Under the pieces are notes generated by a model. The model had not been told where the DNA came from. It did not search any database and saw only the letters and a program-made list of their open reading frames with translations. From a virus, in IMG/VR virus record IMGVR_UViG_3300021090_000122, positions 1 to 20,941 of that record: a stretch of 20,941 bases of DNA; one strand, given 5' to 3'. Both the position numbers and the translations under genes were made by a program. This document shows, in pieces, positions 1-20,941 of the stretch. Position 1 is the stretch's first letter. Each line of letters begins with the position of its first letter.

Positions 1-127
1 CCGATGCTGACATTGACGATGATAGGCCCGCCACCACCGCCGCCAGACATCATCCTCTGGCTATCCCCGGCAGTGTGCACAGTTGACCCAGGAGCCAGGC
101 TGACCAGTTCCGGACCCTGCTCACCTA
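1..127. repeat. Terminal direct repeat, left copy (circular-contig overlap)
   Basis: Bases 1-127 are identical to 20815-20941, read directly from both ends of the window. The tape measure frame crosses the junction without a break when the copies are merged. An exact 127-base end overlap is the typical k-mer overlap left when an assembler closes a circular graph, so I read it as an assembly overlap on a circular map of about 20,814 bp rather than a biological terminal repeat. A short genuine direct terminal repeat cannot be excluded from sequence alone. Confidence 0.95.
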
Positions 128-2006
128 CCCAGGTCATCCCTGATCTTGGCCCGCCCCCTGCTGCTCCGATGATGCCGCCGTGTGCCCGGCCAGTGCCATA
201 CGGGATGTCCTTCGCGGGAACTCTTGAACCGGATGACGTGTAGTAGGTATGGATGTTGACTGTCTTGTTCTGGATGCCATTGAGCAAGCTATGTACAGTT
301 CGCACGCCAGACCGAAGGTTCTCGATGTTCGCCAAAGCCTTGACGCGCTTCTCCGGCGGAAGACTCTTGATCTCGCGCTCGGCCCTCTTCAGCTTGGCGG
401 TGAGGTCAGCTCCTTGTCCCTTGAGAAATGTAATCTTCTGGCCGGGTGACTTCTGCAGGGCGACCTTTGCCTGGAACAACTTCCTGTTCATGTCGTCAAG
501 GTTCATGAGCATAGCTGTTCGCTTTTCCTTTGGAACAGTCTCAAGATCCTTGGTGATTTTGGCAATCTTCTTCTCGGCGTCAGCGATCTGTCCCTTGATG
601 ACAACGCGCGTCGTCATTCCCTTGACGCTGTCGTCCCACTCCTTGACCTTCTTGATCGCTCCGTCAAAAGCTTTGTCGGCCCCTTCCTTGATAGAGTCGA
701 AGCCCTTGGCCGCTGCCTTGAGCTTTGGACCGATACCAGGCATCCAGCCGAATGCCGTGGCTGCGCCATTAAGCATAGTGCCGACAAGGTCGAGGAATGC
801 ACCTGTGATGAACTTGAGGCCCTGCAGGATGATCTTGGCCGAGAACAGTACGACCCGCGCAACGCCCTCGAAGGCAGCAGCGACCATCACACGAAACGTC
901 TGTGACTTCTGGTAGGCCACGACGAGCGCAACGCCGATTGCGACAATGGCCATGACGACCAGGCCAATCGGGTTCGCAGCCAGCACGACGTTCATGATGC
1001 CCTGTGCGATTGCCCACAGCTTTGTTGCGACTACGATTGCCATGATGGTTGGGGCTATGAAGTCCATAGCGCCCTGTGGGATTGCGTTGACGATTGCGGC
1101 CAGGGCCGATGCGACACCAAGGCCGATGCCAGAGAACGGGGCCAGGGCCTCGATCACCTTCATGGCGGTCTCTGCCAGGTTCCTGAACATATCCAGGATG
1201 GCAGGGACCTTGTCCTTGACGCCGTCCATGAACGACTGGAACCCAGAGCTGCCCTTCAGGCCCTGACCGAACTCGGCGAACTTCTTGGTAATCTTCTCCA
1301 GGCCGCCGGTCATCGAACCAGCGAACGGCAAGAATGCCTGGAGGATTCCAGCGAAGCCGCTACCGATGTTCTTGAGACTTCCCAGGAAGTCTGGCAGAGT
1401 CTTCTTTGCTGCCTCGTTCATGTCGCCCATGAAGGACTTGAAGCCTCCGCCAGATACGCCCTTCTTGATCGAGTCCATCATGTCTCCGAGCGCATCAGCA
1501 GCGGTCTCGACCAGAGGTGTCAGTGCCGGCAGCGCAGACCGCATCGCTTCCAGGCCCTTGGTGAAGATTGGCATGGTCTTCGGGGCCAGCGCATCAGACC
1601 ACTTGGTGAAGTCTTCCTTGAGGCCGATGAATGCCTTGGCGGTGTCGCGCGTCGCAGGAGGCAGCTTGGACATAGCCGCGTTGTACGCCTCCATGTCTGC
1701 TGCCGCGCTGGAAGCTCCTGAAGCAGCAGACTCCTGGGCCTTGGTGTATAGCTCGGTCGCTTCGGTCACCTTCTGCATCTGCGGCATGACAGCAGCGCCG
1801 AACGCCCCGACAGCCACGCCCACCGAAGCGAACGCAGCCACCGAGGCACCAGCAGCAGCGACCAGCGGACCGGCGATGCCAGGCCCAACCGTAGCAGCCA
1901 GGGACTTCATCCCGCCCATGACCTTCGCAAAGCCTTCGCCAGCCTGGTCAAATCCGGCTGCGGTGTCGTTGATCGACCGGACTGTGATGCTCACTACGTT
2001 GGGCAT
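1..2006 (-). CDS. Tail tape measure protein, N-terminal 668 codons (gene continues at the right end)
   Basis: The tape measure protein sets tail length and occupies the tail tube lumen. The frame opens with ATG at 2006 behind GAGGAGG, its A shared with the TAA stop of the frameshifted chaperone, and stays open to the window edge. It resumes in frame at 20814 and stops at 20724, giving 698 aa. Visible features are an Ala/Gly-rich N-terminus starting MPNVVSITVRS, a long hydrophobic stretch near residues 313-370 (probable membrane-inserting segments), a charged helical region, and a Gly-rich C-terminus with WVGEQGPELVSLAPGS and a run of glycines typical of tape measure C-termini. The position after tail chaperones and before minor tail genes fits. 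I see no peptidase or lysozyme motif. At about 1.5 angstrom per residue the tail would be roughly 100 nm; that figure is inference. Confidence 0.93.
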   Translation of the reverse strand, partial: MPNVVSITVRSINDTAAGFDQAGEGFAKVMGGMKSLAATVGPGIAGPLVAAAGASVAAFASVGVAVGAFGAAVMPQMQKVTEATELYTKAQESAASGASSAAADMEAYNAAMSKLPPATRDTAKAFIGLKEDFTKWSDALAPKTMPIFTKGLEAMRSALPALTPLVETAADALGDMMDSIKKGVSGGGFKSFMGDMNEAAKKTLPDFLGSLKNIGSGFAGILQAFLPFAGSMTGGLEKITKKFAEFGQGLKGSSGFQSFMDGVKDKVPAILDMFRNLAETAMKVIEALAPFSGIGLGVASALAAIVNAIPQGAMDFIAPTIMAIVVATKLWAIAQGIMNVVLAANPIGLVVMAIVAIGVALVVAYQKSQTFRVMVAAAFEGVARVVLFSAKIILQGLKFITGAFLDLVGTMLNGAATAFGWMPGIGPKLKAAAKGFDSIKEGADKAFDGAIKKVKEWDDSVKGMTTRVVIKGQIADAEKKIAKITKDLETVPKEKRTAMLMNLDDMNRKLFQAKVALQKSPGQKITFLKGQGADLTAKLKRAEREIKSLPPEKRVKALANIENLRSGVRTVHSLLNGIQNKTVNIHTYYTSSGSRVPAKDIPYGTGRAHGGIIGAAGGGPRSGMTWVGEQGPELVSLAPGSTVHTAGDSQRMMSGGGGGGPIIVNVSI

Positions 2007-2574
2007 TACACCTCCTCAGGCGCGGGCTCCGGAGTTCCCATAGCATAGATCATCAGGAGCTGAAGCATGCTAGCATCCTCGGCCAGGATCTCGCTCGGTA
2101 GCTTGTGCCACCGGTCGCACAGGCCGATTACCAGCTTGGCGTGCCTCAGCTCCTGAGGCTCTACGACAGTGTTTCCATCGGAATCGACTCCACCGGGAAC
2201 GTCTCTCCAGAGCCTGAGTCTTTTCCCAGGTCGCTCGAAACACCGGCGACAGCATCCATCCACGCCGTAACAATCGGCATGATGAATGTGAACTCCTGTT
2301 CCTTGACGCTGTCGATCGTCGCGGGAACGGCGCAGCCCTGTTCGTCCTCCAGGTTCCAGGACACCAGCGCACCGGCGAACCCTTCCAGCAGGAACCGGAC
2401 GGCCTTGAGGTCGGACGGCTGGAAGCTCTTGCGGGTCACGTCGATGTTCTGCGCATGGTCCATCAGCTCCAGCAGCGCGCCAGACGACACCGAGCGCGCA
2501 CTGACCTCCAGGCCCTCCAGTTCGCTGTCGGCGAACCTGAGTTCGAACCTGGTCTCTTGCTTCTTGAATCCCAT
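2006..2574 (-). CDS. Tail assembly chaperone, -1 frameshift long form (gpGT-like), join(2574..2221, 2221..2006)
   Basis: This is the predicted extended chaperone made by a -1 ribosomal slip at GGGAAAA (2227-2221). Zero-frame codons GGA AAA re-pair as GGG AAA, and translation continues in the overlapping frame to TAA at 2006-2008. The product is about 118 + 71 = 189 aa. The extension ends in an acidic, Pro-rich tail (TPEPAPEEV) after a helical part (LVIGLCDRWHKLPSEILAEDASMLQLL), which resembles the T part of lambda-type GT proteins. The downstream frame has no good start and ribosome site of its own close to the overlap, consistent with expression as a fusion. Gene order directly before the tape measure is the classic position for this switch. 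Confidence 0.85.
2161..2574 (-). CDS. Tail assembly chaperone, short form (gpG-like)
   Basis: This 137-aa zero-frame product starts at ATG 2574 after a GGGAGA ribosome site and stops with TAG at 2161. The family binds the tape measure protein and tube subunits during tail assembly and is absent from the virion. The N-terminus (MGFKKQETRFELRFADSELEGLEV) is beta-rich, followed by helices with a Leu-rich stretch (LLELMDHAQNIDV, DLKAVRFLLEGFAGALVSW). The identification rests on position between the tail tube and tape measure, the size, and the slippery heptamer in its last fifth. I do not recognise a closer family from sequence alone. Confidence 0.85.
   Translation of the reverse strand: MGFKKQETRFELRFADSELEGLEVSARSVSSGALLELMDHAQNIDVTRKSFQPSDLKAVRFLLEGFAGALVSWNLEDEQGCAVPATIDSVKEQEFTFIMPIVTAWMDAVAGVSSDLGKDSGSGETFPVESIPMETLS
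2221..2227 (-). promoter_or_regulatory. Programmed -1 frameshift slippery heptamer GGGAAAA
   Basis: On the minus strand the chaperone reads CTG GGA AAA GAC, so the bases G GGA AAA form a canonical X XXY YYZ heptamer in the zero frame. Slipping back one base puts ribosomes into the frame that runs to 2006. The overlap of the two open frames spans roughly 2161-2263. Downstream, GACTC (just after the heptamer) and GGAGTC about 25 bases on could pair weakly; I see no strong pseudoknot. Confidence 0.88.
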
Positions 2575-2614
2575 CGTGGTCTCCCTTGCTTTTGATGGGG
2601 GCTCCTGGGGCTTA

Positions 2615-3034
2615 TTAACTCCAGGTGGGCGCGGTGCCGTTCTGGAGGACGCCAGGAGCGCTCCAAGTCAGGGCACCGTCGGCTGCGCGGGTGATCGCGT
2701 AGTCGGTGTACAGGACCTCAGGGGCCAGCGTGTTCGCGCCGACCGTACCAGTGACGGTGAGCGTAGTGGTCCGGGCAACCGAGGTCGAAGGCACGGTCTT
2801 GAACACGGCGTGCGCCTGGTTTGCGGAGTCGTTGAACACGCCGTTGAGAGTGATCGAGAAGTCGGCCAGTAGCAGCAGACGCTCCATCGCAGCCTTGTCG
2901 ACACCGGTGACGTCCTGCGCAGCGCGCGGGGTTGAGAACTGGAAGTTGGTGACGTCGTTCTTGATGACCTGTGCAGCCGCAGCAGCGTCGTCTACCGACA
3001 ACGTGGTCCAGCCTACACCCGAAGTCTTCGCCAT
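2615..3034 (-). CDS. Tail tube-like protein B (139 aa, paralogue of the 249-aa tube protein)
   Basis: This 139-aa protein starts at ATG 3034 behind AAAGGGGATAAGC and sits directly before the tail chaperones. It shares a clear core with the protein encoded at 3484-4233: DVTGVDKAAMERL against EVTGIDKSAIERL, then FNDSANQAH against MNDSAGQAH, then TRAADGALT against TRAADGMLT, with the same MAKxSG N-terminus. Major tail tube subunits commonly occupy the slot before the chaperone, so this may be the main tube subunit and its longer paralogue a cap, terminator-proximal ring or decorated variant, or the reverse. Lengths of 130-250 aa fit the tube family. Tube identity is inferred from position and paralogy rather than a diagnostic motif. 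Confidence 0.75.
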   Translation of the reverse strand: MAKTSGVGWTTLSVDDAAAAAQVIKNDVTNFQFSTPRAAQDVTGVDKAAMERLLLLADFSITLNGVFNDSANQAHAVFKTVPSTSVARTTTLTVTGTVGANTLAPEVLYTDYAITRAADGALTWSAPGVLQNGTAPTWS

Positions 3035-3037
3035 TGC

Positions 3038-3484
3038 TTATCCCCTTTCAAGGATCGTGTTGAGCTTGTCCTGGTGTTCTGCGAAGTCCTCGACCCAGTG
3101 TTCTGGACGAGTGTGTGTGACGGCCGGAGTACCACGAGGGTTGCCCCGGAAGTCCCCGCCCTGCACCATGAAGATCTCGGGCAGCTCTGTCCGGACCTTG
3201 TGCTGTGTGAAGCAGGGCTGGCCGGGTCTGAACAGGAACTCCGTCAGGCCCTCCGGCGTACGGGACTCGGTGAACCCACGGCCGGACTGCTTGCGGATGT
3301 AGAAGGCCTGCTTGGCACCGAGCTCAGCAGACTCATCGATCAGCGAGCGCCACCCGTTGGCGTAGGCCGCACACTCGACATCCTCGCACGTGGAATCCGC
3401 GAAGTGCGTGGACTTGGGCAGTGCGATCCTGTACGTCTTGTAGTCCTGAGGCGACATGGCGGGCTCGAAGCGGTTCAGGGCCAT
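3038..3484 (-). CDS. Conserved actinophage tail-region protein of unknown function
   Basis: This 148-aa protein starts at ATG 3484, which shares one base with the stop of the preceding tube gene (TGATG), so the two are translationally coupled. It resembles a family I recall from actinobacterial phage tail operons, with an N-terminal ExxMxxxxYKTYxIxxPxxTHF pattern, a CEDVEC pair of cysteines near residues 33-37, an FRPGQPCFTQHKV segment, a GGDFRGNPRG loop and a C-terminal WVEDFAEHQDKL helix. The paired cysteines and histidines could bind metal, but that is speculation. Its position between two paralogous tube genes suggests a role in tube or head-tail joining assembly. No function is established to my knowledge. 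Confidence 0.85.
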   Translation of the reverse strand: MALNRFEPAMSPQDYKTYRIALPKSTHFADSTCEDVECAAYANGWRSLIDESAELGAKQAFYIRKQSGRGFTESRTPEGLTEFLFRPGQPCFTQHKVRTELPEIFMVQGGDFRGNPRGTPAVTHTRPEHWVEDFAEHQDKLNTILERG

Positions 3485-4233
3485 CAGAAGTCCACCAGGC
3501 TTTCGTTTCGCATGATCGCGACGGCAAAGGTACACTCGGAGAATGTACCAGAGGTCGTCACCTTGAGGTAGCGTTCGACAGCGAGCGTACGCGCTGTCTG
3601 GATCCGCTGGGTGCCGATGGCCGAAGCCGCAGCAAACACCCCGCCGGTGACGTTGACGTATGCGTCTGCGCCGTTGTTGGACGACTCCTGGATTGCGACG
3701 GTGCACGAGGTGCCCGTGAACGAGAACACCTGCAGGTAGGCCTGTAGGCCGAACTCTTGAGCAGCAGCCGCCGCTCCGAAGTCGATAGCCGTGCCAGCCG
3801 TTGCAGTGGTGTCGGTTCGCTTACCGGCCGTTCCCTGGATCCCCCATTCCAGACCGAAGGCGTTGGCCTGCGCCTGTGTCGCGAACGTCAGCATCCCGTC
3901 TGCAGCACGCGTGCCGTCGTATTCGATCTGCTTGCCCACAAGGCACGCCGCAGCATTGCCCAGAGTGGTTCCCCGAGCGTAGAACACGCCGACGTCGGCT
4001 GTCGGCAGGGTCCGAAGGCGTACGTGCGCCTGTCCGGCGCTGTCGTTCATGAAGGAGCTGAACGCAATCGAGCCGTCCCTGATGCCTCCAAGGCGCTCGA
4101 TTGCTGACTTGTCGATGCCCGTCACCTCCAGAGCGGCCGGACCACCGCCGATTCGCGACAGGGAGCCAATGTCGCCAGACAGGTCGTACCCGCCAACGTA
4201 CAGATTGTCTCCCAGTCCGGACTGCTTCGCCAT
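3484..4233 (-). CDS. Tail tube-like protein A (249 aa, with C-terminal extra domain)
   Basis: This starts at ATG 4233 immediately after the TAG of the preceding gene, with AGGAGG as ribosome site. The first ~135 residues are the tube-like core shared with the 139-aa paralogue at 2615-3034 (EVTGIDKSAIERL, FMNDSAGQAH, TRAADGMLTF). Residues ~145-249 form an additional beta-rich domain (AYLQVFSFTGTSCTVAIQES, RYLKVTTSGTFSECTFAVAI) of a kind often appended to phage tail or fibre proteins, perhaps displayed on the tail exterior. It follows the tail terminator gene, the standard position of a major tail protein. Which paralogue builds the main tube is not decidable here. Confidence 0.8.
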   Translation of the reverse strand: MAKQSGLGDNLYVGGYDLSGDIGSLSRIGGGPAALEVTGIDKSAIERLGGIRDGSIAFSSFMNDSAGQAHVRLRTLPTADVGVFYARGTTLGNAAACLVGKQIEYDGTRAADGMLTFATQAQANAFGLEWGIQGTAGKRTDTTATAGTAIDFGAAAAAQEFGLQAYLQVFSFTGTSCTVAIQESSNNGADAYVNVTGGVFAAASAIGTQRIQTARTLAVERYLKVTTSGTFSECTFAVAIMRNESLVDF

Positions 4234-5074: not shown

Positions 5075-6127
5075 CTACACCGCCATTGTTCTGGCCTTGC
5101 GGCCGTAGCGGGCCTTGGCGTCTGCTTCGAGGGCCTTGATCCCGCGCCCGGTGAACTCCTTGGCGTTGTCGCCTGATCCGGAGATACGAGCGTATCCGGC
5201 GCTCTGCTGCAGCAGGGTGTTGATCGAGTACGCGGCGGCCAGAGTCTCCACCAGGCCCGGAGGCTCCCAGCGAACAATCGCCGTAGCGGTGTCGTGCGCA
5301 GCAGCTGTTGTACCGAGAGCACCGCGCTCGACCACTACAGTGCGTGGTGCGAAGATACTGGCCGACGCGGAATGCGTCGCCAGGACAGAGCCGTCCCAGG
5401 CCCGCTTGACAGTCAGTGTCGTACTGGCGATGTCGACCACCAACATACGCTCGCTGTCGATCAGGATAACTTCGCCCGGTTGCGGCGCGGCCGTAGCAGT
5501 GCTCAAAACGATCGACACGTCAGCAGCGCTCGCTGTCATGCTGTCGGACGCGTGGATGTCGACTGCTGTGTCGGCGAACGTACGGCCAGTCACGCGCATC
5601 CGCTCGTTGTCGATGCGGATGATGCTGCCAACGCCGACCAGGGAGCTGTCGGAAATGTCCACAGATGTCTCGCTGGTGTCCAGGGCTTCTGTGACAGTTC
5701 CAGCAGGCATCTCGTCATTGCTGTGCCCGAAGACGCCAGTCAGTGCGACGTTGCGCTGGTGAGTGTCGCCTCCGTCGAAGCTGGTGCTTGTGCCGATGTC
5801 CAACTCGATGTAGGTGTACGGCGGGCCATCGTTCGCGGGCTCCAGGTTGACATCGCCCAGAGCAATCGCGTTCCCGCCAGATGTGATCGAGGCCAGGCTG
5901 ATCAGCTCGTCCTGATCAAGCCAAAGCCTCCAGCTCAGGCTCTGCTGAGAGTCTGGCCAGTCCTTGTAGCGCGTTCCTGTCCACGGGTAGAACCTCCTGT
6001 GCAGGAGGCCCTCGACAGCGCGGCTTCCCGACTCGATTGCTCGATCAACCTGGGCGTTGGACCGCGCTGTTTCCTTGATGTCCAGGACAGACTTGACGTT
6101 CTCCCTGGTCGTGTACCAAACGCCCAT
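5075..6127 (-). CDS. Head-tail adaptor/connector with internal beta repeats
   Basis: I chose ATG 6127 because GGGGAG lies 8 bases upstream; the frame is open a little further but without a ribosome site. The product is 350 aa. Residues ~1-130 (ETARSNAQVDRAIESGSRAVEGLLHRRFYPWTGT...) match the usual N-terminus of phage adaptor proteins that plug onto the portal. Residues ~145-287 hold a repeated beta motif: IIRIDNERMRV (169-179) and VILIDSERMLV (220-230), then TVKRAWDG...ATHSA and VVERGALGTTAAAH. The C-terminal helix returns to adaptor-like sequence (LVETLAAAYSINTLLQQSAGYARI). The repeats therefore look like an insertion within an adaptor fold, making this longer than the common 100-200 aa form. 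Confidence 0.75.
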   Translation of the reverse strand: MGVWYTTRENVKSVLDIKETARSNAQVDRAIESGSRAVEGLLHRRFYPWTGTRYKDWPDSQQSLSWRLWLDQDELISLASITSGGNAIALGDVNLEPANDGPPYTYIELDIGTSTSFDGGDTHQRNVALTGVFGHSNDEMPAGTVTEALDTSETSVDISDSSLVGVGSIIRIDNERMRVTGRTFADTAVDIHASDSMTASAADVSIVLSTATAAPQPGEVILIDSERMLVVDIASTTLTVKRAWDGSVLATHSASASIFAPRTVVVERGALGTTAAAHDTATAIVRWEPPGLVETLAAAYSINTLLQQSAGYARISGSGDNAKEFTGRGIKALEADAKARYGRKARTMAV

Positions 6128-6132
6128 GCCGG

Positions 6133-6477
6133 TTACTCCCCTTCTTCCCACCACGCGCAGAGCTGGTCGCGCGTGTAGTCGTCAGCGTTCGCGCCTTCGT
6201 CCTCGAAGCCGTTGGCCCTGGCGAACTCCGCCCACTTCGCCTTGCTGGCGTTACGTGATGGAGTCTCGGGGCCACTGCCATCCGTCGCTGGGGCAGTGGA
6301 GGACTCCGCCGGGTCCGGACTGGAGGGGCTCTCCGTCGTTTGGACAGGCGGAAGGTCGCTGTTCTCGGTTGGCTCGCTCTTCGTCTTCTGCGACCCGGAA
6401 GATGTCGCAGAGCTGTTCCCAGGCCATTCCCCGCTCCCTGCGTTCGTCGGGCCGCCGTGCACGGTGATCTTAGGCAT
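6133..6477 (-). CDS. Disordered linker protein with short C-terminal helical domain, head-tail region
   Basis: This 114-aa protein begins MPKITVHGGPTNAGSGEW at ATG 6477. Residues ~20-75 are almost all Ser, Pro, Thr, Glu and Gly and should be disordered. The last ~35 residues (KAKWAEFARANGFEDEGANADDYTRDQLCAWWEEGE) form a compact acidic helical module resembling HeH/Rho-N-like or small structural domains common at the C-terminus of actinophage head proteins. Similar KITVHGG-type proteins are familiar to me from actinobacterial phages near the capsid-connector junction; function is not established. The stop lies 5 bases before the connector ATG, and its end contains the connector ribosome site. 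Confidence 0.8.
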   Translation of the reverse strand: MPKITVHGGPTNAGSGEWPGNSSATSSGSQKTKSEPTENSDLPPVQTTESPSSPDPAESSTAPATDGSGPETPSRNASKAKWAEFARANGFEDEGANADDYTRDQLCAWWEEGE

Positions 6478-12586: not shown

Positions 12587-13085
12587 CGACGCCTTCGAAC
12601 TTGTACTTGCCCTCAACACTGGACTTCACAGTCATCTTGTTGGGGATCTGGCCGAGTTCCTCTGCAGCAGCCCTGAGCAACTTGTCCCGAAGCCGGATCC
12701 AAGCGTAAGCGTCCTCGTTGAGCTCAGCAAACTCTGCGAGCTTCTCGTTGATGCTCTCCAGGTCAGCCTGGTAGTACTCTAGCCTGTTGGACTTGTCGGC
12801 AATCCAGAGCCCGGCGAACTCGTTGTCGATGTCGGCGCGGATCGCTTCGATGCGTTCGCGGTGCTCCGTGTTGATCTGTGAGATCCGGGGCTGCGACACT
12901 CCATACTTCCGAGCGAGAGCGGATTGTGGCTTGTCGGCTTCAGCAAGCTCTCGCAGCAGTCTTGCAAGCCGGTGTCCACGAAGAATGACCTTTGGCGAAC
13001 GATAACCGTCGTCAGCATAAGAAGCTTGATAAGCAGGCCCGTCGTTGGAGCGTCCAGGAGTGGCGGGCTGTCTTTTTTTCACCAT
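12567..13085 (-). CDS. Terminase small subunit
   Basis: I chose ATG 13085 since GAGGAGG lies 9 bases upstream; the frame extends to 13103 without a better site and a GTG at 13082 is also possible. The product is 172 aa. The N-terminus is basic and flexible (MVKKRQPATPGRSN), and residues ~55-71 (SALARKYGVSQPRISQI) form a clear helix-turn-helix. A long helical, acidic oligomerisation part follows (~75-145) and then a C-terminal segment likely to contact the large subunit. The adjacent, overlapping large terminase confirms the role. It recognises the packaging site, possibly in the non-coding region just upstream. Confidence 0.9.
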   Translation of the reverse strand: MVKKRQPATPGRSNDGPAYQASYADDGYRSPKVILRGHRLARLLRELAEADKPQSALARKYGVSQPRISQINTEHRERIEAIRADIDNEFAGLWIADKSNRLEYYQADLESINEKLAEFAELNEDAYAWIRLRDKLLRAAAEELGQIPNKMTVKSSVEGKYKFEGVDDADVT

Positions 13086-13351
13086 TTCCGCCCACCTCCT
13101 CACCCATCGCGTATAGGAACGTCAGCAGCAATCCGAGGGTCACCATTTCGGCTCCGCTCAGGCATGCAACCCCAACTTAGGATTCATACCTTACCCTACG
13201 CGCGCCCGACCCCGAATATTGACCGTCATAAATATACCGTAAGCGATGAGCCGACTACCGGGACCGCGCGGGACCGGACCAGGGACTGCGAAAAGACCGC
13301 ACTGTGGCCCCAGACATATCTGCAGGTCGGAGGCCCTTTTTCAAGATCGAA

Positions 13352-13453
13352 GACCACAAGGACCACAATTCGGGAGTTCCCTCCCCGGCTATATACGCTT
13401 TTATACTTACTTACTCTTACTTAGAATTCTAAGAATATGTGGTCCTGTGGTCC
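13352..13453. repeat. Inverted iteron-like pair flanking the AT-rich core
   Basis: Left block GACCACAAGGACCACA (13352-13367) holds two GACCACA units. Right block TGTGGTCCTGTGGTCC (13438-13453) holds two tandem TGTGGTCC units in opposite orientation. The inner 8-bp units GGACCACA and TGTGGTCC are exact inverted complements separated by 70 bp of mainly AT-rich DNA. The arrangement looks like initiator binding sites on both sides of a DNA unwinding element. Confidence 0.7.
13420..13433. repeat. 14-bp perfect palindrome in the AT-rich core
   Basis: CTTAGAATTCTAAG reads identically on both strands. It lies in the most AT-rich part of the putative origin, after TTACTTACTCTTACTTA, a run of TTACT-type direct repeats (13406-13422). 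It could be a protein dimer site or a nicking or cruciform element. Confidence 0.7.
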
Positions 13454-13481
13454 TATACCCCCTTCTACCAGGGCAAACAGT

Positions 13482-13511
13482 AGGACCGCACCTGGTCCTA
13501 GGTGCGGTCCT
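13482..13511. terminator. 11-bp perfect hairpin 16 bases after the helicase stop
   Basis: AGGACCGCACC (13482-13492) and GGTGCGGTCCT (13501-13511) are exact inverted complements around an 8-base loop that itself contains GGTCC. It is placed to end the leftward early transcript, although only TACTGTTTG follows on that strand. It may equally be part of the origin repeat array, since both arms carry the GGACC motif. Confidence 0.5.
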
Positions 13512-13526
13512 GGGTCCTGCGTGGTC

Positions 13527-15059
13527 CTAGCGGAGCTTCGGGCCGTCCTTCGAGGGCTCCCGCAGCTTCATGCCCGACCAGCCGCGTGCTCCCTTGACCT
13601 TGGTCCGCTTGTACTCCAGCCCACCCAGCTCATGCCCGAGAGGGCTGGCCTGCAGCGGCTTCGTCCCGGTAGTCATGCACCACAACTCGTAAGCCGCGCG
13701 CAACTCTGCTGATGTGATCTCGAAGTCGTCGCCCTTGACAGTGCAGTCCATCAGGAACTCGGTGGTGCTGGACATCTCGTCTCGGTACCCGGCTGTTGTC
13801 TTCCTGACGGACTCCGGCCATTCCTCTCGGTCCAGGCCCTCTGCGAGGTACATGTTCCATCCCTCAACGCACCAGGCTAGGAAAGCCTCTCGCGCCCCGG
13901 CATCCGAGACCATGGCCGTACCCCTCTTGGCATTTGCCGAAGTCCTAGGCACAACCTGATCGAACTCTACGACGCACATACGGTTCGCTGTGGCTGCGTC
14001 GGCTCCCTTGATTCGCGGGGTGTCGTTGGTGGCAATGAACATTGTGAACTGCGGCATCACCGTCTCTTCGTCCTTGTTCTTCCGGGCGAAGGTGATCTGG
14101 TCGAGCCCGCCGCTCAGCCTCTTGATCTGGTCGGCATGGATCTCCAGGTTGTTGCCCGACTCCGACGACAGGGCAAACCTGGACCGGACAATGTTGGCGA
14201 TGTCTGAGCGCGGCCCTTCGTCAAACTGTCCGCGCAGCACTGTCATCTGCATCGTTGAGGCGTACCCTCCGGCAACCTGCCCGCCGAACACCGCGCTGGC
14301 CATCTCCAGGATGGTGCTCTTGCCCGAGTTGCCAGGCCCCTGGAAGAACACCATCAGCTTCTCGTGGTTCCTGCCGTACATGCTGTAGCCCAGCAGCTTC
14401 TGAACAAGCCTGCGCTTGCCCGTCTCCGGTAGGAACGTGTCAAGGTAGCTCTCCCACAGCGGCGACAACGCCCCGTCCACATACTCCGTCCCGCAGTCGC
14501 GCGTGACAAAGTCCTCTCGCGTGTAGTCGCCGAACTCCGCCTTGTCGCCGCTTGGGTCAAGGACCAGGATGCCATTGCGGCACCCCAGCAGCTTGGGGTC
14601 GGTGTCGAACTTCTCTGCGGTCACCGAAGACTGGCGCTTGAAGGTCTTCGCAACCTCCATCATCGCAACGATGCGCGACCGGTTGCCGCACTGCCGACCC
14701 CAGGACAAGGCGGCCTGCGCATCCTTCTCTCTGTCCTTGTCGCCCTTGGCTGCTGCCTTGAGTTCGTAACCATCCTTCAGTAGCTCGTGCTGGACATCCG
14801 TCGCCCAGCGGTCCACGATGCCGCGCTTGTCTTCGACCCAGCGACCTCCGACCCACACAGCCCATGCCGACCACTGGCGGATCCAGTACATGTCCTTTCC
14901 GTGCTTGGCGCAAAGCCGCTCCGCGTTCCCGGTGTCGTTCCATTCGTAACGCCCCGACACAGAGGACGTCTCGGCAGACGCAGCCTTTCCCGCAGACACA
15001 CGTGCCTTCTGCCTGGCCAGCAGTTCTTCTGGGTTGTCCGGGATCTCAGTCATCATCAC
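13527..15059 (-). CDS. D5-type SF3 helicase (phage/plasmid primase-helicase family)
   Basis: This 510-aa protein starts at GTG 15059 (GTGA overlap with the primase stop; ATG 15056 or 15053 also possible). Residues ~45-235 match the D5_N-type region (MYWIRQWSAWAVWVGGRWVEDK; NGILVLD near 162-168). The SF3 ATPase follows: Walker A GPGNSGKST (241-249), FALSSESGN (295-303) at the Walker B position, sensor FIATNDTPRI (341-350) and an arginine in ATANRM (Arg360). The C-terminal domain (~430-500) resembles a winged-helix origin-binding domain. These hexameric helicases open phage, virus and plasmid origins, as in P4 alpha. Here the primase part is a separate adjacent gene and the non-coding origin candidate lies immediately downstream. 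Confidence 0.93.
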   Translation of the reverse strand: MMMTEIPDNPEELLARQKARVSAGKAASAETSSVSGRYEWNDTGNAERLCAKHGKDMYWIRQWSAWAVWVGGRWVEDKRGIVDRWATDVQHELLKDGYELKAAAKGDKDREKDAQAALSWGRQCGNRSRIVAMMEVAKTFKRQSSVTAEKFDTDPKLLGCRNGILVLDPSGDKAEFGDYTREDFVTRDCGTEYVDGALSPLWESYLDTFLPETGKRRLVQKLLGYSMYGRNHEKLMVFFQGPGNSGKSTILEMASAVFGGQVAGGYASTMQMTVLRGQFDEGPRSDIANIVRSRFALSSESGNNLEIHADQIKRLSGGLDQITFARKNKDEETVMPQFTMFIATNDTPRIKGADAATANRMCVVEFDQVVPRTSANAKRGTAMVSDAGAREAFLAWCVEGWNMYLAEGLDREEWPESVRKTTAGYRDEMSSTTEFLMDCTVKGDDFEITSAELRAAYELWCMTTGTKPLQASPLGHELGGLEYKRTKVKGARGWSGMKLREPSKDGPKLR

Positions 15060-15829
15060 GCGTCCTTGCTTTTGTGGCTGCCATCCCAGGACCGCGTTGC
15101 GGACCCCGTTCCGAGTTCGCCGTACTTGTCGATGTATGCCGCCAGCTCGTGGTGCTTGACCACCATAAGCTCGCCTCGTTCCCAGCCAGAGTCCAGATGA
15201 TCAGACATGTCCGACTTGGCCAGCTTGTTCTGGGGGAGGACAAACACCACCTGCTCCATCTTGATCCCGACTTCAGACAGAAGCCCCCAGTGGTGCCAAG
15301 CCAGCTGACGACCGACCTTGTCCCGGTCCATGCAGATGATGATCTGGCATTTGGCCCCCAGGAACCAAATGGCCTGCCCGTAGCGCGCTCCACTGCCGCC
15401 TTGCCAGTGTGAGGTCGCCGGACCCCAGCCCGCCTGCATGATGTTGCGCGCGTCCTTTTCCCCCTCGCACCAGAACAAGGACGACGTGGGCTTGTCCCAG
15501 GCCCACAGCAGAGCCTTCAGCTGGTACATGAGGATTGTGTCGTCTCCGCCGTACATCCCGATGCCCGACGCCCACTTGCCAGGAGCAGGGCTGTCGCATA
15601 TGCACCCGTCCTCGCACATGTGCTTGGTGGTGAAGGTCTTGTCAACAACCTTCCCGGTGCGCAGGCTGATCAGGTCCCAGCGAACCTTGGCGTACACCGG
15701 CTTGAAGTCCGGATCCAGGTACACGTACGGCTTGAGTATCGACTTCGACGGCATCAGCCCCTTGTCCAGCCACCCGGACGAAGCAGCCCAGTCCAGTCGC
15801 CACTGCTCTTCGTACCACTTCTTGGTCAC
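15056..15829 (-). CDS. TOPRIM-domain DNA primase
   Basis: I start this at GTG 15829, which overlaps the Cys-rich gene stop (GTGA); the open frame runs to 15970 but inside that neighbour. The product is 257 aa. Residues ~35-70 (YVYLDPDFKPVYAKVRWDLISLRTGK) fit the N-terminal beta domain of phage TOPRIM primases. The TOPRIM signature is present: CEGEKDA with Glu122, then IIICMDRDKVGR with Asp168 and Asp170, and KSDMSDHLDSG near 205-214. A short CEDGCICDS (72-80) occupies the place of a zinc element but is incomplete as a classical four-ligand finger. It should make RNA primers and work with the adjacent SF3 helicase. The overlap of reading frames indicates coupled translation. Confidence 0.9.
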   Translation of the reverse strand: MTKKWYEEQWRLDWAASSGWLDKGLMPSKSILKPYVYLDPDFKPVYAKVRWDLISLRTGKVVDKTFTTKHMCEDGCICDSPAPGKWASGIGMYGGDDTILMYQLKALLWAWDKPTSSLFWCEGEKDARNIMQAGWGPATSHWQGGSGARYGQAIWFLGAKCQIIICMDRDKVGRQLAWHHWGLLSEVGIKMEQVVFVLPQNKLAKSDMSDHLDSGWERGELMVVKHHELAAYIDKYGELGTGSATRSWDGSHKSKDA

Positions 15830-15993
15830 GCCGCGCTCCTGAAGTAGACCTCGACACACACCGGGTAGTAACGGATGTGCTTGGGCGGGTTGACCGGCCG
15901 AACAGGAGTGACAGCCGCCGGAGCAAACTCCCAGCCGCCATGGACGTCGCAGACACATCCGCACTCGCACGCGCAGCTACAGTCCCTGTTCAC
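15826..15993 (-). CDS. Small cysteine-rich protein with CxCxCxCxCxC repeat
   Basis: This 55-aa protein starts at GTG 15993 and ends at TGA 15826-15828, with 4-base overlaps to the genes on both sides, which argues strongly that it is real. Residues 5-15 contain six cysteines at every second position (DCSCACECGCVCD), followed by HGGW. The remainder is Pro/Val-rich with one further Cys near residue 47. The alternate-Cys pattern suggests tight binding of zinc or another thiophilic metal, metallothionein-like, or a metal-stabilised knuckle aiding the primase translated right after it. I do not recognise a family. Confidence 0.8.
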   Translation of the reverse strand: MNRDCSCACECGCVCDVHGGWEFAPAAVTPVRPVNPPKHIRYYPVCVEVYFRSAA

Positions 15994-16190
15994 AGCAGCC
16001 ACTCCAGTTCCCGAACCTCACGCGCCTGCCGGACCAGCCCAGCGTAAGCAGCCGCCTCTTCGTCGTCTCCCATCCACACCTTCCAGGCACGCCTCCGGAC
16101 GGTCCTGTCGTATGCCTCCGCTTCGGTCTCGCCGGGCAGCGCCGTGATCTGGTTGCGCTCCCAGTTACGCGGGGTGCTATTTCCAAGCAT
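15990..16190 (-). CDS. Small acidic protein of unknown function in the replication operon
   Basis: I prefer ATG 16190 since AAAGGAAG lies 8 bases upstream, giving 66 aa; an alternative ATG at 16265 directly abuts the upstream stop and would give 91 aa, but it has no ribosome site and an Arg/Pro-rich, unlikely N-terminus. The protein is helical and charged with three Trp residues (NWERNQITALPGETEAEAYDRTVRRRAWKVWMGDDEE). It ends in GTGA overlap with the Cys-rich gene. Function unknown; its operon suggests a replication or host-takeover accessory. Confidence 0.75.
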   Translation of the reverse strand: MLGNSTPRNWERNQITALPGETEAEAYDRTVRRRAWKVWMGDDEEAAAYAGLVRQAREVRELEWLL

Positions 16191-16233
16191 CGGGTATACT
16201 TCCTTTCGGTTGGTACATCGGATTGGCGCAGAG

Positions 16234-16257
16234 GGCCTCACCCTTACCGGTGGGGCC
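16234..16257. other. 9-bp stem-loop upstream of the 66-aa gene
   Basis: GGCCTCACC (16234-16242) pairs with GGTGGGGCC (16249-16257), with one G-U wobble, around a 6-base loop. It lies between the ribbon-helix-helix stop and the ribosome site of the 66-aa gene. It could be an mRNA processing or attenuation element. It also weakens the case for the longer 91-aa start, which would have to read through it. Confidence 0.45.
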
Positions 16258-16265
16258 TTCGTCAT

Positions 16266-16424
16266 TTACCGGGCGCTGACTCCCAGCAGCTCCTTGTTGA
16301 TCAGCTGACGGACAACATCGGCCTTTGCCATGTCGAGCCTGTCAGCCTCCGCCTGGACGGCTGCCTCCTGGACTTCGGTAAGTCGTAGGTTGATCGGGCT
16401 TCCGTACCTCTTGGGCCTGGCCAT
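16266..16424 (-). CDS. Ribbon-helix-helix DNA-binding protein
   Basis: This 52-aa protein starts at ATG 16424 with AAGGAG 6 bases upstream. The pattern RYGSPINLRLTEVQEAAVQAEADRLDMAKADVVRQLINKEL matches the Arc/CopG/MetJ ribbon-helix-helix layout: a short strand with alternating polar residues (SPINLRL), helix 1, a turn and helix 2 ending the fold. Such dimers bind operators; in plasmids they control copy number, partition or addiction modules. With no antitoxin partner nearby, a repressor of the early operon or replication control is likeliest. The gene is shorter than most but full-length for the fold. Confidence 0.85.
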   Translation of the reverse strand: MARPKRYGSPINLRLTEVQEAAVQAEADRLDMAKADVVRQLINKELLGVSAR

Positions 16425-16452
16425 GTCTGCTCCTTGGTGTGGGGTCTTTTGC

Positions 16453-16668: not shown

Positions 16669-16869
16669 GTGACCGAAACCGCCTGGACCGTCCGAGAGGC
16701 CCACCGAGAGCTGGCAACTCGCGTTAGCTTCCGGACCTTCGCGGGGTGGGTGCGGGCGTCCCTAGAGCCCGTAGGGGTCCGGGAAACGGGTCACCGGGGC
16801 CGTCCGGCCTATACGTACGACGCAACCGAGGTCGAAGACCTCATAAACCGCAAGGGAGACACCGGATGA
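16669..16869 (+). CDS. Small helix-turn-helix regulator, probably leaderless
   Basis: The GTG at 16669 gives 66 aa and follows a -10-like TACTAT with no room for a ribosome site, so a leaderless mRNA is likely, which is common in actinobacteria. The frame is open upstream to 16330 but only across the antisense early genes. The sequence TETAWTVREAHRELATRVSFRTFAGWVRASLEPVGV...GRPAYTYDATEVEDLI has the layout of MerR/excisionase-like winged helix-turn-helix proteins, with the wing at GRPAYTYDATEV. It may be a cassette repressor, immunity regulator or excisionase-like factor. It is the only regulator transcribed rightward and overlaps the next gene by 4 bases. Confidence 0.8.
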   Translation: MTETAWTVREAHRELATRVSFRTFAGWVRASLEPVGVRETGHRGRPAYTYDATEVEDLINRKGDTG

Positions 16870-17012
16870 TCTGGACTGGGATCGCGGTCTTGCTGCTCAT
16901 CGCCGCAATCGTCATCAACAACATCAAGCTCCGCAAGGAGACCAAGGCCGACAGCGAGCGGCTCCGGGCGACCATTGCCGCCTACGCCACCCCGAAGAAG
17001 GCCCACCAGTGA
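16866..17012 (+). CDS. Single-pass membrane microprotein (48 aa)
   Basis: The start ATG 16866 overlaps the regulator stop (ATGA) and GGGAG lies upstream. Residues ~2-20 (IWTGIAVLLLIAAIVINNI) form one transmembrane helix, followed by a charged, probably helical tail (KLRKETKADSERLRATIAAYA). The positive charges right after the helix predict a cytoplasmic C-terminus. It overlaps the lipoprotein gene by 4 bases, so the two membrane products are coupled. Roles to consider are superinfection exclusion, a membrane anchor for the regulator, or a lysis accessory. Confidence 0.8.
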   Translation: MIWTGIAVLLLIAAIVINNIKLRKETKADSERLRATIAAYATPKKAHQ

Positions 17013-17287
17013 GAGATGCCCTGAAGGCCACCGCGCTCGCCCTGGCCACTTTGGCCGTCGCCGTAGCAGCAGGCTGTGCACAAGCAGCCGACAGGTCAGC
17101 CCCGACGTCCGGATGCACCGAAGAGGCATCTGTTCAGATGTACGTTGAGCGCTACTTCGACTGCAGCGACACATCCATCTACACCTTCAAGACAAAGGAA
17201 GACCGGGATGCATGGCTGACGATCGCCAAACTCTTCGGCAACGTCGCAGTGGACTCCGGAGAGACCTGGTTGAAGATCAAGAACTAG
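17009..17287 (+). CDS. Predicted lipoprotein (92 aa), possible superinfection-exclusion factor
   Basis: It starts at GTG 17009 in GTGA overlap with the previous gene. A short basic start, a hydrophobic core (ALKATALALATLAVAVAAG) and Cys23 in VAAGC form a signal peptide with a slightly relaxed lipobox (Ala at -3). Mature residues include Cys36 and Cys52, which could pair, and a compact C-terminal region (RDAWLTIAKLFGNVAVDSGETWLKI). It would be anchored on the outer face of the cytoplasmic membrane. Prophage lipoproteins of this size can block DNA entry of related phages; no sequence motif proves that here. It ends 13 bases before the shared terminator. Confidence 0.8.
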   Translation: MRDALKATALALATLAVAVAAGCAQAADRSAPTSGCTEEASVQMYVERYFDCSDTSIYTFKTKEDRDAWLTIAKLFGNVAVDSGETWLKIKN

Positions 17288-17361: not shown

Positions 17362-17964
17362 CTACCCGACCAGCTTTTCTGATATGACTCCCTTGCACAG
17401 GAAGATGTTGGAAGCGCTGGAGGCCGACCACTGCGCAGTGAGCTGAATGTATGTAGCGGCAGCAGTGGTGTCGACAGTGGCCGAGGCCGTGCCATCAATC
17501 ACCGTGGTGATCTCAGCCGCATCGTTGATGTATGGTGCTGTGCCTGCCAGGATGCCAGATGTTTTGTACTTCAGAGGCCCATTGAGAGCGCCTGCTGCGC
17601 CGATAGACTCGCAGCACATGAAAGTGTCTGCGATAAACAACCGGTTTGTCACGCCACTCTGAACAGTGAGAGCGGTGGTCTGGGCAACCTGAGTGTTTGA
17701 CGTCGGAGTCGCGCTGTTCCCAACTCTGAGCCGCACTGTGATCGTTGGCGTGCCGGTGACAGCCATAGCGCCCCAGGCCTTGATCCGGAAGCACATGCCG
17801 ACCTCAGCAACGTTTGCCGGGATCAGGATCTGCGCAAACACCGTCTCGGTGGTCGTGGTGTTGATGTTGGTTGCGGCTGACGGAAGGACCAGGTGCCCGA
17901 CCTCCATGGCCAACAGCTTCTCAGCCGTGACCTTCTCGCCAGCAGACCAGTCTACTGCTGTCAT
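17362..17964 (-). CDS. Distal tail / tail-tip protein, last gene of the late operon
   Basis: This 200-aa protein starts at ATG 17964, 8 bases after the stop of the 915-aa tail gene, with TAGGAGG upstream. The N-terminus DWSAGEKVTAEKLLAM matches the W-x-x-G-E-x-V-T-A-x-x-L motif seen at the start of many phage tail-tip and appendage proteins, and the rest is beta-rich (TITVRLRVGNS, AATYIQLTAQWSASSASN) like trimeric fibre or capping domains. Its place at the end of the tail operon suggests host recognition. No enzymatic motif is visible and no chaperone follows. Confidence 0.8.
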   Translation of the reverse strand: MTAVDWSAGEKVTAEKLLAMEVGHLVLPSAATNINTTTTETVFAQILIPANVAEVGMCFRIKAWGAMAVTGTPTITVRLRVGNSATPTSNTQVAQTTALTVQSGVTNRLFIADTFMCCESIGAAGALNGPLKYKTSGILAGTAPYINDAAEITTVIDGTASATVDTTAAATYIQLTAQWSASSASNIFLCKGVISEKLVG

Positions 17965-17972: not shown

Positions 17973-20720
17973 CTACAGGGCTACGAACATCGGATAGGCG
18001 ACCTTGACAGCCGCGCCGGTAGAGTGAGTCTTGACGATCCCGTTGGCCGACCTGGTCACAGTGAACGTCTGCGGGGATGTCGTACCAGAGACAGCAGTCA
18101 CTGTCATGACCTCTCCGCCAACGACTATGTCGTACGGGAATTCGCCCGCGTCCGACGCAGTGTCGGCCCAGACTGGTCCGTCAGTAGTCAACACGGTAAC
18201 GTCCGTCTCGGTGGTTGTCAGGTCCTCTCCGAGTTCAGAACCAGTGGTGTCGACTTCGAGAGTATCCACGCTGACGTCAGCTACGTGGTAAGGCGACTCA
18301 GGGATGCCGAAGAAGGCCATATTGTGTTCCTGACCAGTGAGCATCTCCTTGTACCCGACCACGAGTTGTGTGACGTCGTCTGGCGGCATCCAACTCGGAA
18401 CGTTAACCACGGTGATACGGTTGCCGACGTCGGAGAACATAGCCTGCTCGCGCATGTCGCCTGTCGCAAACGTCGAGTGCCGAAGGTTGATGGCGATGTT
18501 CGGGTAGCGTGCTTCGTCGACAGTGCCGACATTCAGCAACCACCCAGCATAGTCACCCAGCTTTGTGTCGTCCTCTACATTCATGGTGACGCTGTTGTCG
18601 TACTTGCCGACTCCGAGAGGCGGGGCCAGAACGGACAGCGGACCCGAGTCTAGCGACTTCCGTGCAGACGACCCGTTGGGCCGGAGCACGGTGATGTAGT
18701 TGCGTGTGTTCTGGTCGTCGTCGACAGGGTCCAGGGAGTCCGACAGCTCGTGGTTGCTGTAGTCGAGTTCCAGGGCCGTGGTGAGGTTGTACAGGCTGAA
18801 CCTAGTCCTGTACTCCAGGCCAATCTGGTCGCGCGATTCGTACATCATGCCCATGTCGGCGGTGACGCACTCGGCGAGTAGCTCCAGGAACTGCAACGGA
18901 CCCTGCGGTCCCATAGGCTCGGTGTGTGCTGTTCCCCCGATGATCCGAAGTTCCACGCCCTGTTCGTCGCACAGCCTTGCCATACGGACGCCAGAAAGTT
19001 CCCCGACATAGCCGATGATCTGGTCTCGGAGGTCGTACGAAGACGACACGTCCTTCTGCAGAGTCAGGTGCCCATACGACACACCAGCCATGTCCTTGTT
19101 TGGGGCTAGGGTGATCGCCGTAACGCGACCGACGGTGCAACCAGTTAGTGCCTCGCTCCACACCAGTGGGCTGCCAGTCGACAGGTAGTAGTACCCGAGC
19201 ACGGTGTTGACGTTTGCGCCGCTCTGTGTTAGCTCGATGCTGACGCGCCCTGGTTCTCCGGCAATTGCGAAGGCAGCTGCCGTTGTCGAGTCAATCACCA
19301 CGTTCTCTGCGGTGTAGGCGATCAGCTGCATGCTGCCAGCAGTGCTTGTATTGACCAGGTCGACACGGCGGGCCGACCCGCTACAAAATAGGCGGGCAAT
19401 CACAGTGCCGGCAGCAACCCCAGCGATGGGGACAGACAGAAGGTGCCTGACTTGCGTCTCGCCGGTCGATGTGTAGGTGTTGACCGTGTACTCGACACGG
19501 CCAGCCTGCATGACAGCAATTGGCTCTGACCCGACGAACTGATCGTCAGAGCCAAGGTCGACAATTCCGTCAATGTCGCCTTCGAGCCCGGAGCTGATAC
19601 CTGAGGCGATTCCGTACGATCCGCTCAGGTCCTCCATCGGCCAGTACTCGATCACAGGGTTGCTGGTGTCTCCAGTGATCCCCTTGAACAGAGCGGAGTC
19701 TGAGGCTGACGTGCCCTGGCCGAGCCGACGCATGACCCCAGCGGCTTCAAGGTCAACATAGACGTCGTTGCCTGAAATGTCCCACTTCTGCGGCCAGGAA
19801 GACACCTCTCCATGGAATCTGTAGTGACGATCCTCGATGGCCAGGAAGCACACCCAACTGCGCGGGCTTGTCGTCGTGTCGTCAAACACTTCGTCCCCGG
19901 CCACCTGGATTGTGAAGTCCGGGTTGGCCACAAGAGTTCCGGCGATCCCGTTGCGCATCTGGAATGCGTGGATCTTCCCCTGCATCGCCGAAGTGCTCAG
20001 ACCCAGGGTCGTGCCAAGCTCCAGATCAGCCGTGGAGCTGAAGATTGAAGTTGTCCCAGCAGTCGTGACGGCAGAGCCGAGAGTTGTCCACGACCCGCCG
20101 ATTGAATCGGAGGTGTAGAATGTGACTGTGTTCCCGGATGCCCCGTTGTTGACGTCCAGCGTGACACGCAGGGCAAGCCGACCCTGTGTGACGGGAATGG
20201 GTGCTGTCGAGCTGATTGTAATTCTCGCGGCCAGAGTCCCGTCCGGCGACCACGCAAACGTAGTGATCCCGTTGTCGTCAGTCCACCAGGCCCAGGACCT
20301 CTGGTTGCCGGTGACGACGTACTTCCCAGCCAGGGCCTGGCCGTCCCTCCAGGAATCAAGCGATGCCTCAAGCCTCAGGTCGATGTCGCCTGTGACATCC
20401 AACACAGCCGCGTCAACCGTCAGCGCCCCGTTGGCATTGCTGCCGTTGACAGGCATGTAGCTCTCGCCGTACGGGACCGACACCCTGATCGGAGTATTGC
20501 GGCCGATCAACCCGAAGTACGGAGACGACGGGTTGCGCGGGCTGTACTTGCCGTCAGCGTTGGAGAGCGTCAAGGTGAGCCTGCTGGCCTCGACAGATCC
20601 GCCTTCAGAAGACTTGCCCCTGTTGATTGTCACGCCAGCAGAGTATCTGACATCGTCCTTGATCGCTGTCCAGGCCCCGTTGATGTACATATCAATCTTC
20701 GGGTCGATTGGCGTGACCAT
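17973..20720 (-). CDS. Large minor tail protein with LamG-like domain (915 aa)
   Basis: This starts at ATG 20720, three bases after the tape measure stop, with GGGAGG inside the end of that gene. Residues ~1-90 (DMYINGAWTAIKDD; TLTLSNADGKYSPRNPSSPYFG; NTPIRVSV) are the typical distal-tail-like opening of actinophage minor tail proteins. Residues ~360-560 (VIEYWPMEDLSGSYG...) resemble a concanavalin/LamG-type lectin fold that could bind cell-surface glycans. The middle (~560-780) resembles a baseplate hub. The last ~70 residues carry a GEVMTVTAVSGT...FTVTRSANG...HSTGAAV motif, also seen in the connector protein. It appears to merge Dit, hub and receptor-binding functions in one chain. Confidence 0.88.
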   Translation of the reverse strand: MVTPIDPKIDMYINGAWTAIKDDVRYSAGVTINRGKSSEGGSVEASRLTLTLSNADGKYSPRNPSSPYFGLIGRNTPIRVSVPYGESYMPVNGSNANGALTVDAAVLDVTGDIDLRLEASLDSWRDGQALAGKYVVTGNQRSWAWWTDDNGITTFAWSPDGTLAARITISSTAPIPVTQGRLALRVTLDVNNGASGNTVTFYTSDSIGGSWTTLGSAVTTAGTTSIFSSTADLELGTTLGLSTSAMQGKIHAFQMRNGIAGTLVANPDFTIQVAGDEVFDDTTTSPRSWVCFLAIEDRHYRFHGEVSSWPQKWDISGNDVYVDLEAAGVMRRLGQGTSASDSALFKGITGDTSNPVIEYWPMEDLSGSYGIASGISSGLEGDIDGIVDLGSDDQFVGSEPIAVMQAGRVEYTVNTYTSTGETQVRHLLSVPIAGVAAGTVIARLFCSGSARRVDLVNTSTAGSMQLIAYTAENVVIDSTTAAAFAIAGEPGRVSIELTQSGANVNTVLGYYYLSTGSPLVWSEALTGCTVGRVTAITLAPNKDMAGVSYGHLTLQKDVSSSYDLRDQIIGYVGELSGVRMARLCDEQGVELRIIGGTAHTEPMGPQGPLQFLELLAECVTADMGMMYESRDQIGLEYRTRFSLYNLTTALELDYSNHELSDSLDPVDDDQNTRNYITVLRPNGSSARKSLDSGPLSVLAPPLGVGKYDNSVTMNVEDDTKLGDYAGWLLNVGTVDEARYPNIAINLRHSTFATGDMREQAMFSDVGNRITVVNVPSWMPPDDVTQLVVGYKEMLTGQEHNMAFFGIPESPYHVADVSVDTLEVDTTGSELGEDLTTTETDVTVLTTDGPVWADTASDAGEFPYDIVVGGEVMTVTAVSGTTSPQTFTVTRSANGIVKTHSTGAAVKVAYPMFVAL

Positions 20721-20723
20721 AAC

Positions 20724-20941
20724 CTACCTCCCTAGGGTTGCCTGGACGTTTCCGCCCCGAGCAGAGATTGACTTGCGCAGAGGGTCGATCAGAAGTTCGC
20801 CAACCTTGTTACCGCCGATGCTGACATTGACGATGATAGGCCCGCCACCACCGCCGCCAGACATCATCCTCTGGCTATCCCCGGCAGTGTGCACAGTTGA
20901 CCCAGGAGCCAGGCTGACCAGTTCCGGACCCTGCTCACCTA
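20724..20941 (-). CDS. Tail tape measure protein, C-terminal part (same gene as 1..2006)
   Basis: This stretch repeats the window start from 20815 on and then supplies the missing end of the tape measure gene: IGGNKVGELLIDPLRKSI, then GGNVQATLGR and TAG at 20724-20726. The frame matches exactly when base 20815 is equated with base 1. On the circular map the gene is 2,097 bp. It is not a second gene. Confidence 0.95.
   Translation of the reverse strand, partial: GEQGPELVSLAPGSTVHTAGDSQRMMSGGGGGGPIIVNVSIGGNKVGELLIDPLRKSISARGGNVQATLGR
20815..20941. repeat. Terminal direct repeat, right copy (circular-contig overlap)
   Basis: This copy is identical to bases 1-127 and lies inside the tape measure coding sequence. 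It should be removed once when the sequence is circularised. Confidence 0.95.

Follow-up and report, generated by a model that had tools for sequence, protein, structure and literature searches.

A small, very likely circular tailed-phage genome with virion and replication genes and no recognisable endolysin or integrase

The window analysed here is a viral contig of 20,941 nucleotides (IMG/VR record IMGVR_UViG_3300021090_000122, positions 1-20,941) that carries packaging, head, tail and replication genes. Tailed double-stranded DNA phages are thought to require an endolysin for exit from a walled cell, and we found no recognisable endolysin in this genome. Judged from sequence, the absence looks real, because seven further closed small circles sharing its virion module likewise show no lysin. 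The recurrence of full virion and replication genes without integrase and lysin across diverged closed genomes points to a plasmid- or satellite-like life. The explanation that we consider moderately probable is an actinobacterial phage-plasmid or satellite-like circle with its own virion and replication genes, whose virions would be released by host or helper lysis.

PHROGs and Pfam profiles were run on the assigned proteins of the window (PHROGs only for the terminase, portal, protease, capsid and major tail proteins) and gave no match to an endolysin, holin or integrase. A Pfam scan of 135 further six-frame open reading frames (ORFs) of at least 48 aa was equally devoid of lysins, holins and integrases, which argues against the earlier idea of a lysis gene hidden in an overlapping ORF. 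Six-frame searches with Amidase_2, PF08924, Peptidase_M15_3 and Phage_integrase (PF00589) were negative in the window, and the same profiles were positive in phage Dagobah and the relatives G005, G008 and G017, respectively. The lysis cassette that is usual in tailed phages, though not strictly defining of them, is thus not detected in the window. These scans bear out the original prediction that no endolysin or integrase is recognisable. Its statement that a classical repressor is lacking also holds, the candidate regulators being a weak Arc-like ribbon-helix-helix (RHH) protein of 52 aa and a helix-turn-helix (HTH)-looking protein of 66 aa.

Some larger proteins deserved attention as lysins. 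The tape measure matches PHROG 971, which is labelled endolysin, but the match is confined to the tape-measure part and reflects a labelling effect; the relative G065 shows the same trap. The 915-aa protein was considered as a virion lysin, but its model (mean predicted local distance difference test, pLDDT, 63) matches lectin-like and tail-hub folds, and its GH43 matches are long alignments of low template-modelling score to beta folds. Both this product and the 200-aa product, which had been listed as possible lysins, are tail proteins (phrog_5313 and structure matches for the former, a 69.5% homologue for the latter). In G008, the minor tail protein (L046:10451-12997) has a GH18-like C-terminal domain (E 0.001, below the cut-off) that lies past the end of the window homologue.

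The genome is apparently complete, as originally described. Positions 1-127 are identical to 20815-20941, and this exact direct repeat most likely marks closure of a circle, which measures 20,814 bp once one copy is removed, rather than physical terminal repeats. Since 127 bp is a usual assembler word size, the repeat is uninformative on physical ends. The circle is very likely correct, because the minus-strand frame of the 698-aa tape measure stays open across the join, from 2006 through to 20724, and its product can be aligned over the full length (62%) to the G016 tape measure, which is internal to the contig of that relative.

The 139-aa tail protein has relatives in more than 570 IMG/VR stretches, and the group that shares the virion module is large and mostly uncultured. 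Its cultured members are Streptomyces phage Dagobah and, by its terminase, Thermobifida phage P1312. The host of the window is very likely an actinomycete, because prophage-like relatives sit in actinobacterial genera (Streptomyces, Kitasatospora, Actinomadura, Nonomuraea) and in Streptosporangiaceae; Actinomadura sp. KC345 and S. aurantiogriseus JCM 4346 are among the strains carrying related elements. Small relatives closed by exact end repeats include G059 (21,248 bp), G060 (21,247 bp), G061 (21,039 bp), G063 (23,936 bp), G065 (20,114 bp), G075 (23,342 bp) and G008 (25,905 bp); G016 forms a circle of about 22,675 bp (649-bp end overlap, 97%). These circles come from separate samples, range from 50 to 68% in GC content and have major capsid proteins (MCPs) 46-67% identical to that of the window. 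A further sample yielded G062 (21,353 bp, lacking an end repeat), which is almost a twin of G059.

To take a census of lysis genes, we scanned with Pfam the ORFs outside the structural regions of the relatives. The scans covered ORFs from about 60 aa upwards, apart from a few crossing contig ends and one 303-aa ORF of G060 (HTH/Rep-like by eye); for several relatives they did not extend to the tape measure and the minor tail protein. Within this scope, neither lysin nor integrase was found in seven closed circles (G016, G059, G060, G061, G063, G065 and G075). The sole cassette belongs to G008, which encodes a Peptidase_M15_3 protein (1.9e-12) just beyond the tail genes and a Phage_holin_2 protein (3.6e-16), placed there by position and appearance. 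This cassette serves as a positive control, since it indicates that the scan finds lysis genes when they are present. Relatives with larger genomes also encode lysins, namely the amidases of Dagobah and P1312 and the PF08924 protein of G005, whose lysis genes likewise lie past the tail genes. G061 (L247/L248; 50% GC) encodes a coiled-coil protein of 72 aa with a C-terminal anchor (L247:10264-10482), which looks XhlA-like by eye, and has an antitoxin-like ORF at L248:133-318.

That the element lives as a plasmid, makes virions and relies on the host or a helper to free them is our inference. A Toprim protein and a D5 primase-helicase would start replication at a candidate iteron origin, and the element would persist as a plasmid-like circle. 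It would make siphovirus-like virions, and these would exit through host autolysis or through the lysis system of a co-infecting helper phage. Like phage-plasmids, the window is a closed circular phage genome that encodes its own replication proteins and lacks an integrase, and plasmid-type genes occur in its relatives. Typical phage-plasmids encode lysis, whereas no lysis genes are seen in the window. Because the window itself has neither FtsK/TraB nor a partition gene, and no gene that is clearly of replicon type, the plasmid lifestyle is argued from the relatives and from the missing integrase and lysin; possible maintenance features are the weak RHH protein (E 0.011) and an iteron-like cluster, and ParA and ParB are unmatched in the window.

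Several observations weigh against this explanation. Closure is based on assembler-length repeats without reads, the window lacks the plasmid-type genes just named, and no host is identified for any small circle. Profile searches would miss a lysin from an undescribed family. Furthermore, the larger closed circles G084 and G085 (contigs of 47.3 and 46.5 kb with 99- and 100-bp end repeats, in the same MCP clade) carry GDSL/SGNH hydrolases, and no peptidoglycan hydrolase was detected in their partial ORF sets. A GDSL/SGNH hydrolase is a possible alternative envelope enzyme in this clade; that of G085 lies at 45131-45958 (L302:5131-5958).

The original prediction had named three ways out: an unrecognised lysis protein, release by the host or a helper, and life as a plasmid or chronic phage. 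The plasmid-like form with host or helper release is the one favoured here, no hidden ORF has a lysin domain, the 85-aa membrane protein is an unpromising lysis gene, and the pair of 48- and 92-aa proteins is still a candidate. A self-sufficient small phage with an unrecognised lysis protein is rather unlikely. In that case the cell would be lysed by the translationally coupled 48-aa single-transmembrane protein and 92-aa lipoprotein, or by the 85-aa membrane protein, acting like single-gene lysis proteins or like holin/spanin-like pairs. The 66-, 48- and 92-aa genes overlap at ATGA and GTGA, their products show features of membrane proteins and lipoproteins, and the operon follows closely on the tail genes, where G008 and G005 hold their lysis genes. 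However, the operon converges with the late genes and diverges from the replication operon, an arrangement more like that of immunity or maintenance genes, and quite different genes occupy the same site in G016 and G063. Maintenance, immunity or superinfection exclusion is a likelier role for the operon than lysis, and is the most likely one. Searches of phages and of the PDB gave no homologue for the lipoprotein, and its single-sequence model (pLDDT 54) is uninformative. The 85-aa protein is a poor candidate, as its homologues adjoin portal or terminase genes in many relatives.

Strict dependence on a helper for lysis, the helper-only form of the favoured explanation, is possible but doubtful. 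The Streptomyces satellites MiniFlayer and MulchRoom are linear, measure 14.8-17.4 kb with terminal repeats of about 1-1.6 kb, have incomplete or unusual tails and are described as lacking primases (PMC10690885). The window shares with them its small size and its own terminase, portal and capsid genes; an endolysin is absent from the annotations of both, and MiniFlayer, like the window, has no integrase (PMC10690885). It differs in its full siphovirus tail module and in its D5 primase-helicase, whereas satellites as characterised in that work combine encapsidation with a lack of replication genes (PMC10690885). No helper was identified. Chronic release without lysis is highly improbable. It would make a lysin unnecessary, in keeping with the failure to detect one, and has no other support; the window has no secretion genes, and tailed phages are not known to leave actinobacterial cells without lysis.

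We also considered that the window arose by deletion from a 40-60-kb phage whose lysis and integration region was lost, or is an artefact of assembling such a phage. Relatives with the same virion module do measure 36-60 kb, several of them with lysins, yet closed circles of similar size and layout recur in different samples at the MCP identities and GC contents given above, and each has intact ORFs and a distinct replication module. We regard this origin as improbable. In the MCP tree, one clade of 25 rows (100/100) takes in seven of the nine small circles, the window among them, together with 45-47-kb genomes. A single origin of the small genomes is not supported, since the state of being small and closed requires about 8 label changes on this tree, close to the 8.6 obtained with shuffled labels; over the tree as a whole, small size and closure thus cluster no more than chance would give.

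Plasmid-type genes are more evident in the relatives. FtsK/SpoIIIE (FtsK/TraB-like) translocases occur in G059, G062 and G063 and, weakly by profile, in G016 and G064, and Prim-Pol and D5 helicase genes in G016 and G061. G016 and G063 also have in common a 75-84-aa protein (58%). The nearest relative of the 200-aa tail protein is encoded on a 36-kb linear contig, G017 (IMGVR_UViG_3300037483_000233), whose structural part (L319/L320) holds virion genes close to those of the window. Beside them lie an integrase gene (PF00589, 2e-22), one for an FtsK/TraB-like protein and a large replication gene. Its core (L319:260-13150) resembles an actinomycete integrative and conjugative element (AICE) and comprises a 904-aa replication protein, an HTH Xis-like protein, the tyrosine integrase, the FtsK/TraB-like protein and an XRE-type regulator. 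The contig C315 of G137 (L316-L318; 44,790 bp, exact 141-bp end repeat), found within an actinobacterial genome assembly, carries the same structural module, and this closed 44.6-kb circle supports an extrachromosomal existence of the wider group.

AICEs are defined by an integrase, replication through RepSA, RepAM or Prim-Pol, and an FtsK/SpoIIIE translocase, and at least one of them has D5-domain proteins (PMC3218068). The relatives resemble AICEs in their Prim-Pol, D5 and FtsK/SpoIIIE families, and G017 additionally in its tyrosine integrase. By its gene content the window is not an AICE, because it has neither integrase nor FtsK: profile scans of the window found no recombinase and no FtsK/SpoIIIE protein. 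It also differs in having no Prim-Pol and a complete virion module. FtsK is not in itself proof of conjugation, as the cultured phage P1312 encodes one too. A bolder scheme, which we put forward as tentative, is an actinobacterial lineage without a lysis system that joins a complete tailed-virion module to plasmid or AICE modules, namely D5/Prim-Pol replication and, in several members, an FtsK/TraB-like translocase. It would spread through the mycelium by conjugation-like transfer of double-stranded DNA and would reach other colonies in virions set free when hyphae die or a helper acts, the task of lysis having passed to the host or to another phage.

Among cultured phages, Dagobah (MT711977) has terminase, portal, protease, MCP, connector, tail and minor tail proteins that are homologous to those of the window and syntenic. 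P1312 (KT021004) has a homologous terminase. Both differ from the window in size (47 and 60 kb), in encoding an endolysin/amidase and in their replication genes, and P1312 further in its integrase/recombinase and FtsK. Small size alone does not explain the lack of a lysin, since the 15.6-kb Arthrobacter cluster AN phage Sourignavong, likewise a small, mostly structural genome without integrase or repressor, is annotated with two endolysin genes (PMC11953736).

Recurrent closed head-tail-replication genomes with no detectable lysin provide a test of outsourced lysis versus an undescribed lysis protein. If TraB-type transfer really does accompany virion genes in the relatives, these would form a bridge in actinobacteria between conjugative elements and phages. 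It would also follow that part of the soil viral sequence resembling incomplete prophages could actually be complete.

The gene layout does not quite match the claim that every large frame belongs to packaging, head, tail or replication, as the region 16266-17287 holds the small regulators, the 48-aa transmembrane protein and the 92-aa lipoprotein (Table 1). A single long packaging-head-tail block occupies the minus strand, as indicated by PHROGs matches and synteny, and its terminase, portal, MCP, head protease, major tail protein and tape measure follow the siphovirus order of Caudoviricetes. The 137-aa gene and the 85-aa ORF that overlaps it have the layout of a frameshifted tail assembly chaperone pair, so that a frameshift may join them.

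A second minus-strand operon encodes the Toprim-like protein and the D5-type primase-helicase; an IMG/VR scan for the latter returned zero matches. The gap of about 420 bp between the primase-helicase and small terminase genes contains the 100-mer of lowest GC in the genome, and 7 of the 15 genomic GGACCRC words fall inside 267 bp of it (P about 2e-10, Poisson model). This iteron-like, AT-rich stretch is a candidate replication origin, and the 52-aa RHH protein a candidate copy-number or early-gene regulator. The 66-aa HTH-like protein has no family match in PHROGs or Pfam. Rfam and tRNA scans of the window were empty.

Table 1. Features of the window and FtsK/TraB-like translocases of three relatives.
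Feature	Location	Strand	Basis or remark
Exact direct terminal repeat, pairs with 20815-20941	1..127		Length of a common assembler k-mer
Tape measure, main part (698 aa, runs through join to 20724)	1..2006	-	Tape-measure PHROGs; 62% to G016 tape measure
85-aa ORF overlapping 137-aa gene, downstream half of putative chaperone pair	2006..2263	-	phrog_9001, weak; position kept in relatives
Putative tail assembly chaperone, 137 aa	2161..2574	-	Position and conservation
139-aa tail protein, most conserved marker of the group	2615..3034	-	IMG/VR relatives
Conserved 149-aa tail-region protein	3038..3487	-	Relatives
Major tail protein, 249 aa	3484..4233	-	phrog_9522, 1.7e-11
Two head-tail/tail completion proteins, 151 and 128 aa	4234..5072	-	Synteny with Dagobah and prophages
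359-aa protein of the head-tail connector region, typical of the group	5075..6154	-	Relatives
Head-region proteins, 114, 149 and 175 aa	6133..7558	-	Relatives
Major capsid protein	7695..9146	-	phrog_10, 2.1e-40; MCP tree
ClpP-type head maturation protease	9041..9730	-	phrog_2976, 1.1e-76
Portal protein	9727..10995	-	phrog_2662, 5.4e-65
85-aa membrane protein between terminase and portal	10992..11249	-	Conserved in relatives
Terminase large subunit	11249..12619	-	phrog_2, 4.5e-34; relatives
Terminase small subunit (HTH)	12567..13103	-	PHROGs; position; relatives
Candidate replication origin	13104..13526		GGACCRC cluster; lowest GC
D5-type primase-helicase, 510 aa	13527..15059	-	phrog_1156, 1.1e-107; Pfam D5_N, 1.5e-19
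Toprim-type primase partner, 254 aa (start maybe further upstream)	15056..15820	-	phrog_239, 5.3e-06; Pfam Toprim below cut-off
Small replication-operon protein, 91-aa ORF	15990..16265	-	No PHROGs or Pfam family
RHH protein, 52 aa, Arc/CopG-like	16266..16424	-	phrog_6506, E 0.011, weak
66-aa HTH-like protein, divergent from replication operon (probable start inside ORF 16330-16869)	16669..16869	+	HTH-looking
48-aa protein with a single transmembrane segment, start overlaps preceding stop (ATGA)	16866..17012	+	Frame and membrane prediction
92-aa lipoprotein (lipobox AAGC), start overlaps preceding stop (GTGA)	17009..17287	+	Frame and lipobox
200-aa tail protein, downstream of minor tail gene	17362..17964	-	69.5% homologue in G017/L064
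915-aa minor tail protein with lectin-like (LamG/ConA) domains and a part resembling a tail hub, without hydrolase domain	17973..20720	-	phrog_5313, 2.5e-232; structure model
Tape measure, C-terminal end, beyond circular join	20724..20941	-	Reading frame; G016 alignment
FtsK/TraB-like translocase, C-terminal winged-helix-like end	G063 L252:1681-3768	-	
FtsK/TraB-like translocase, C-terminal winged-helix-like end	G059 L243:1099-2844	+	
FtsK/TraB-like translocase, C-terminal winged-helix-like end	G016 L150:821-2053	+

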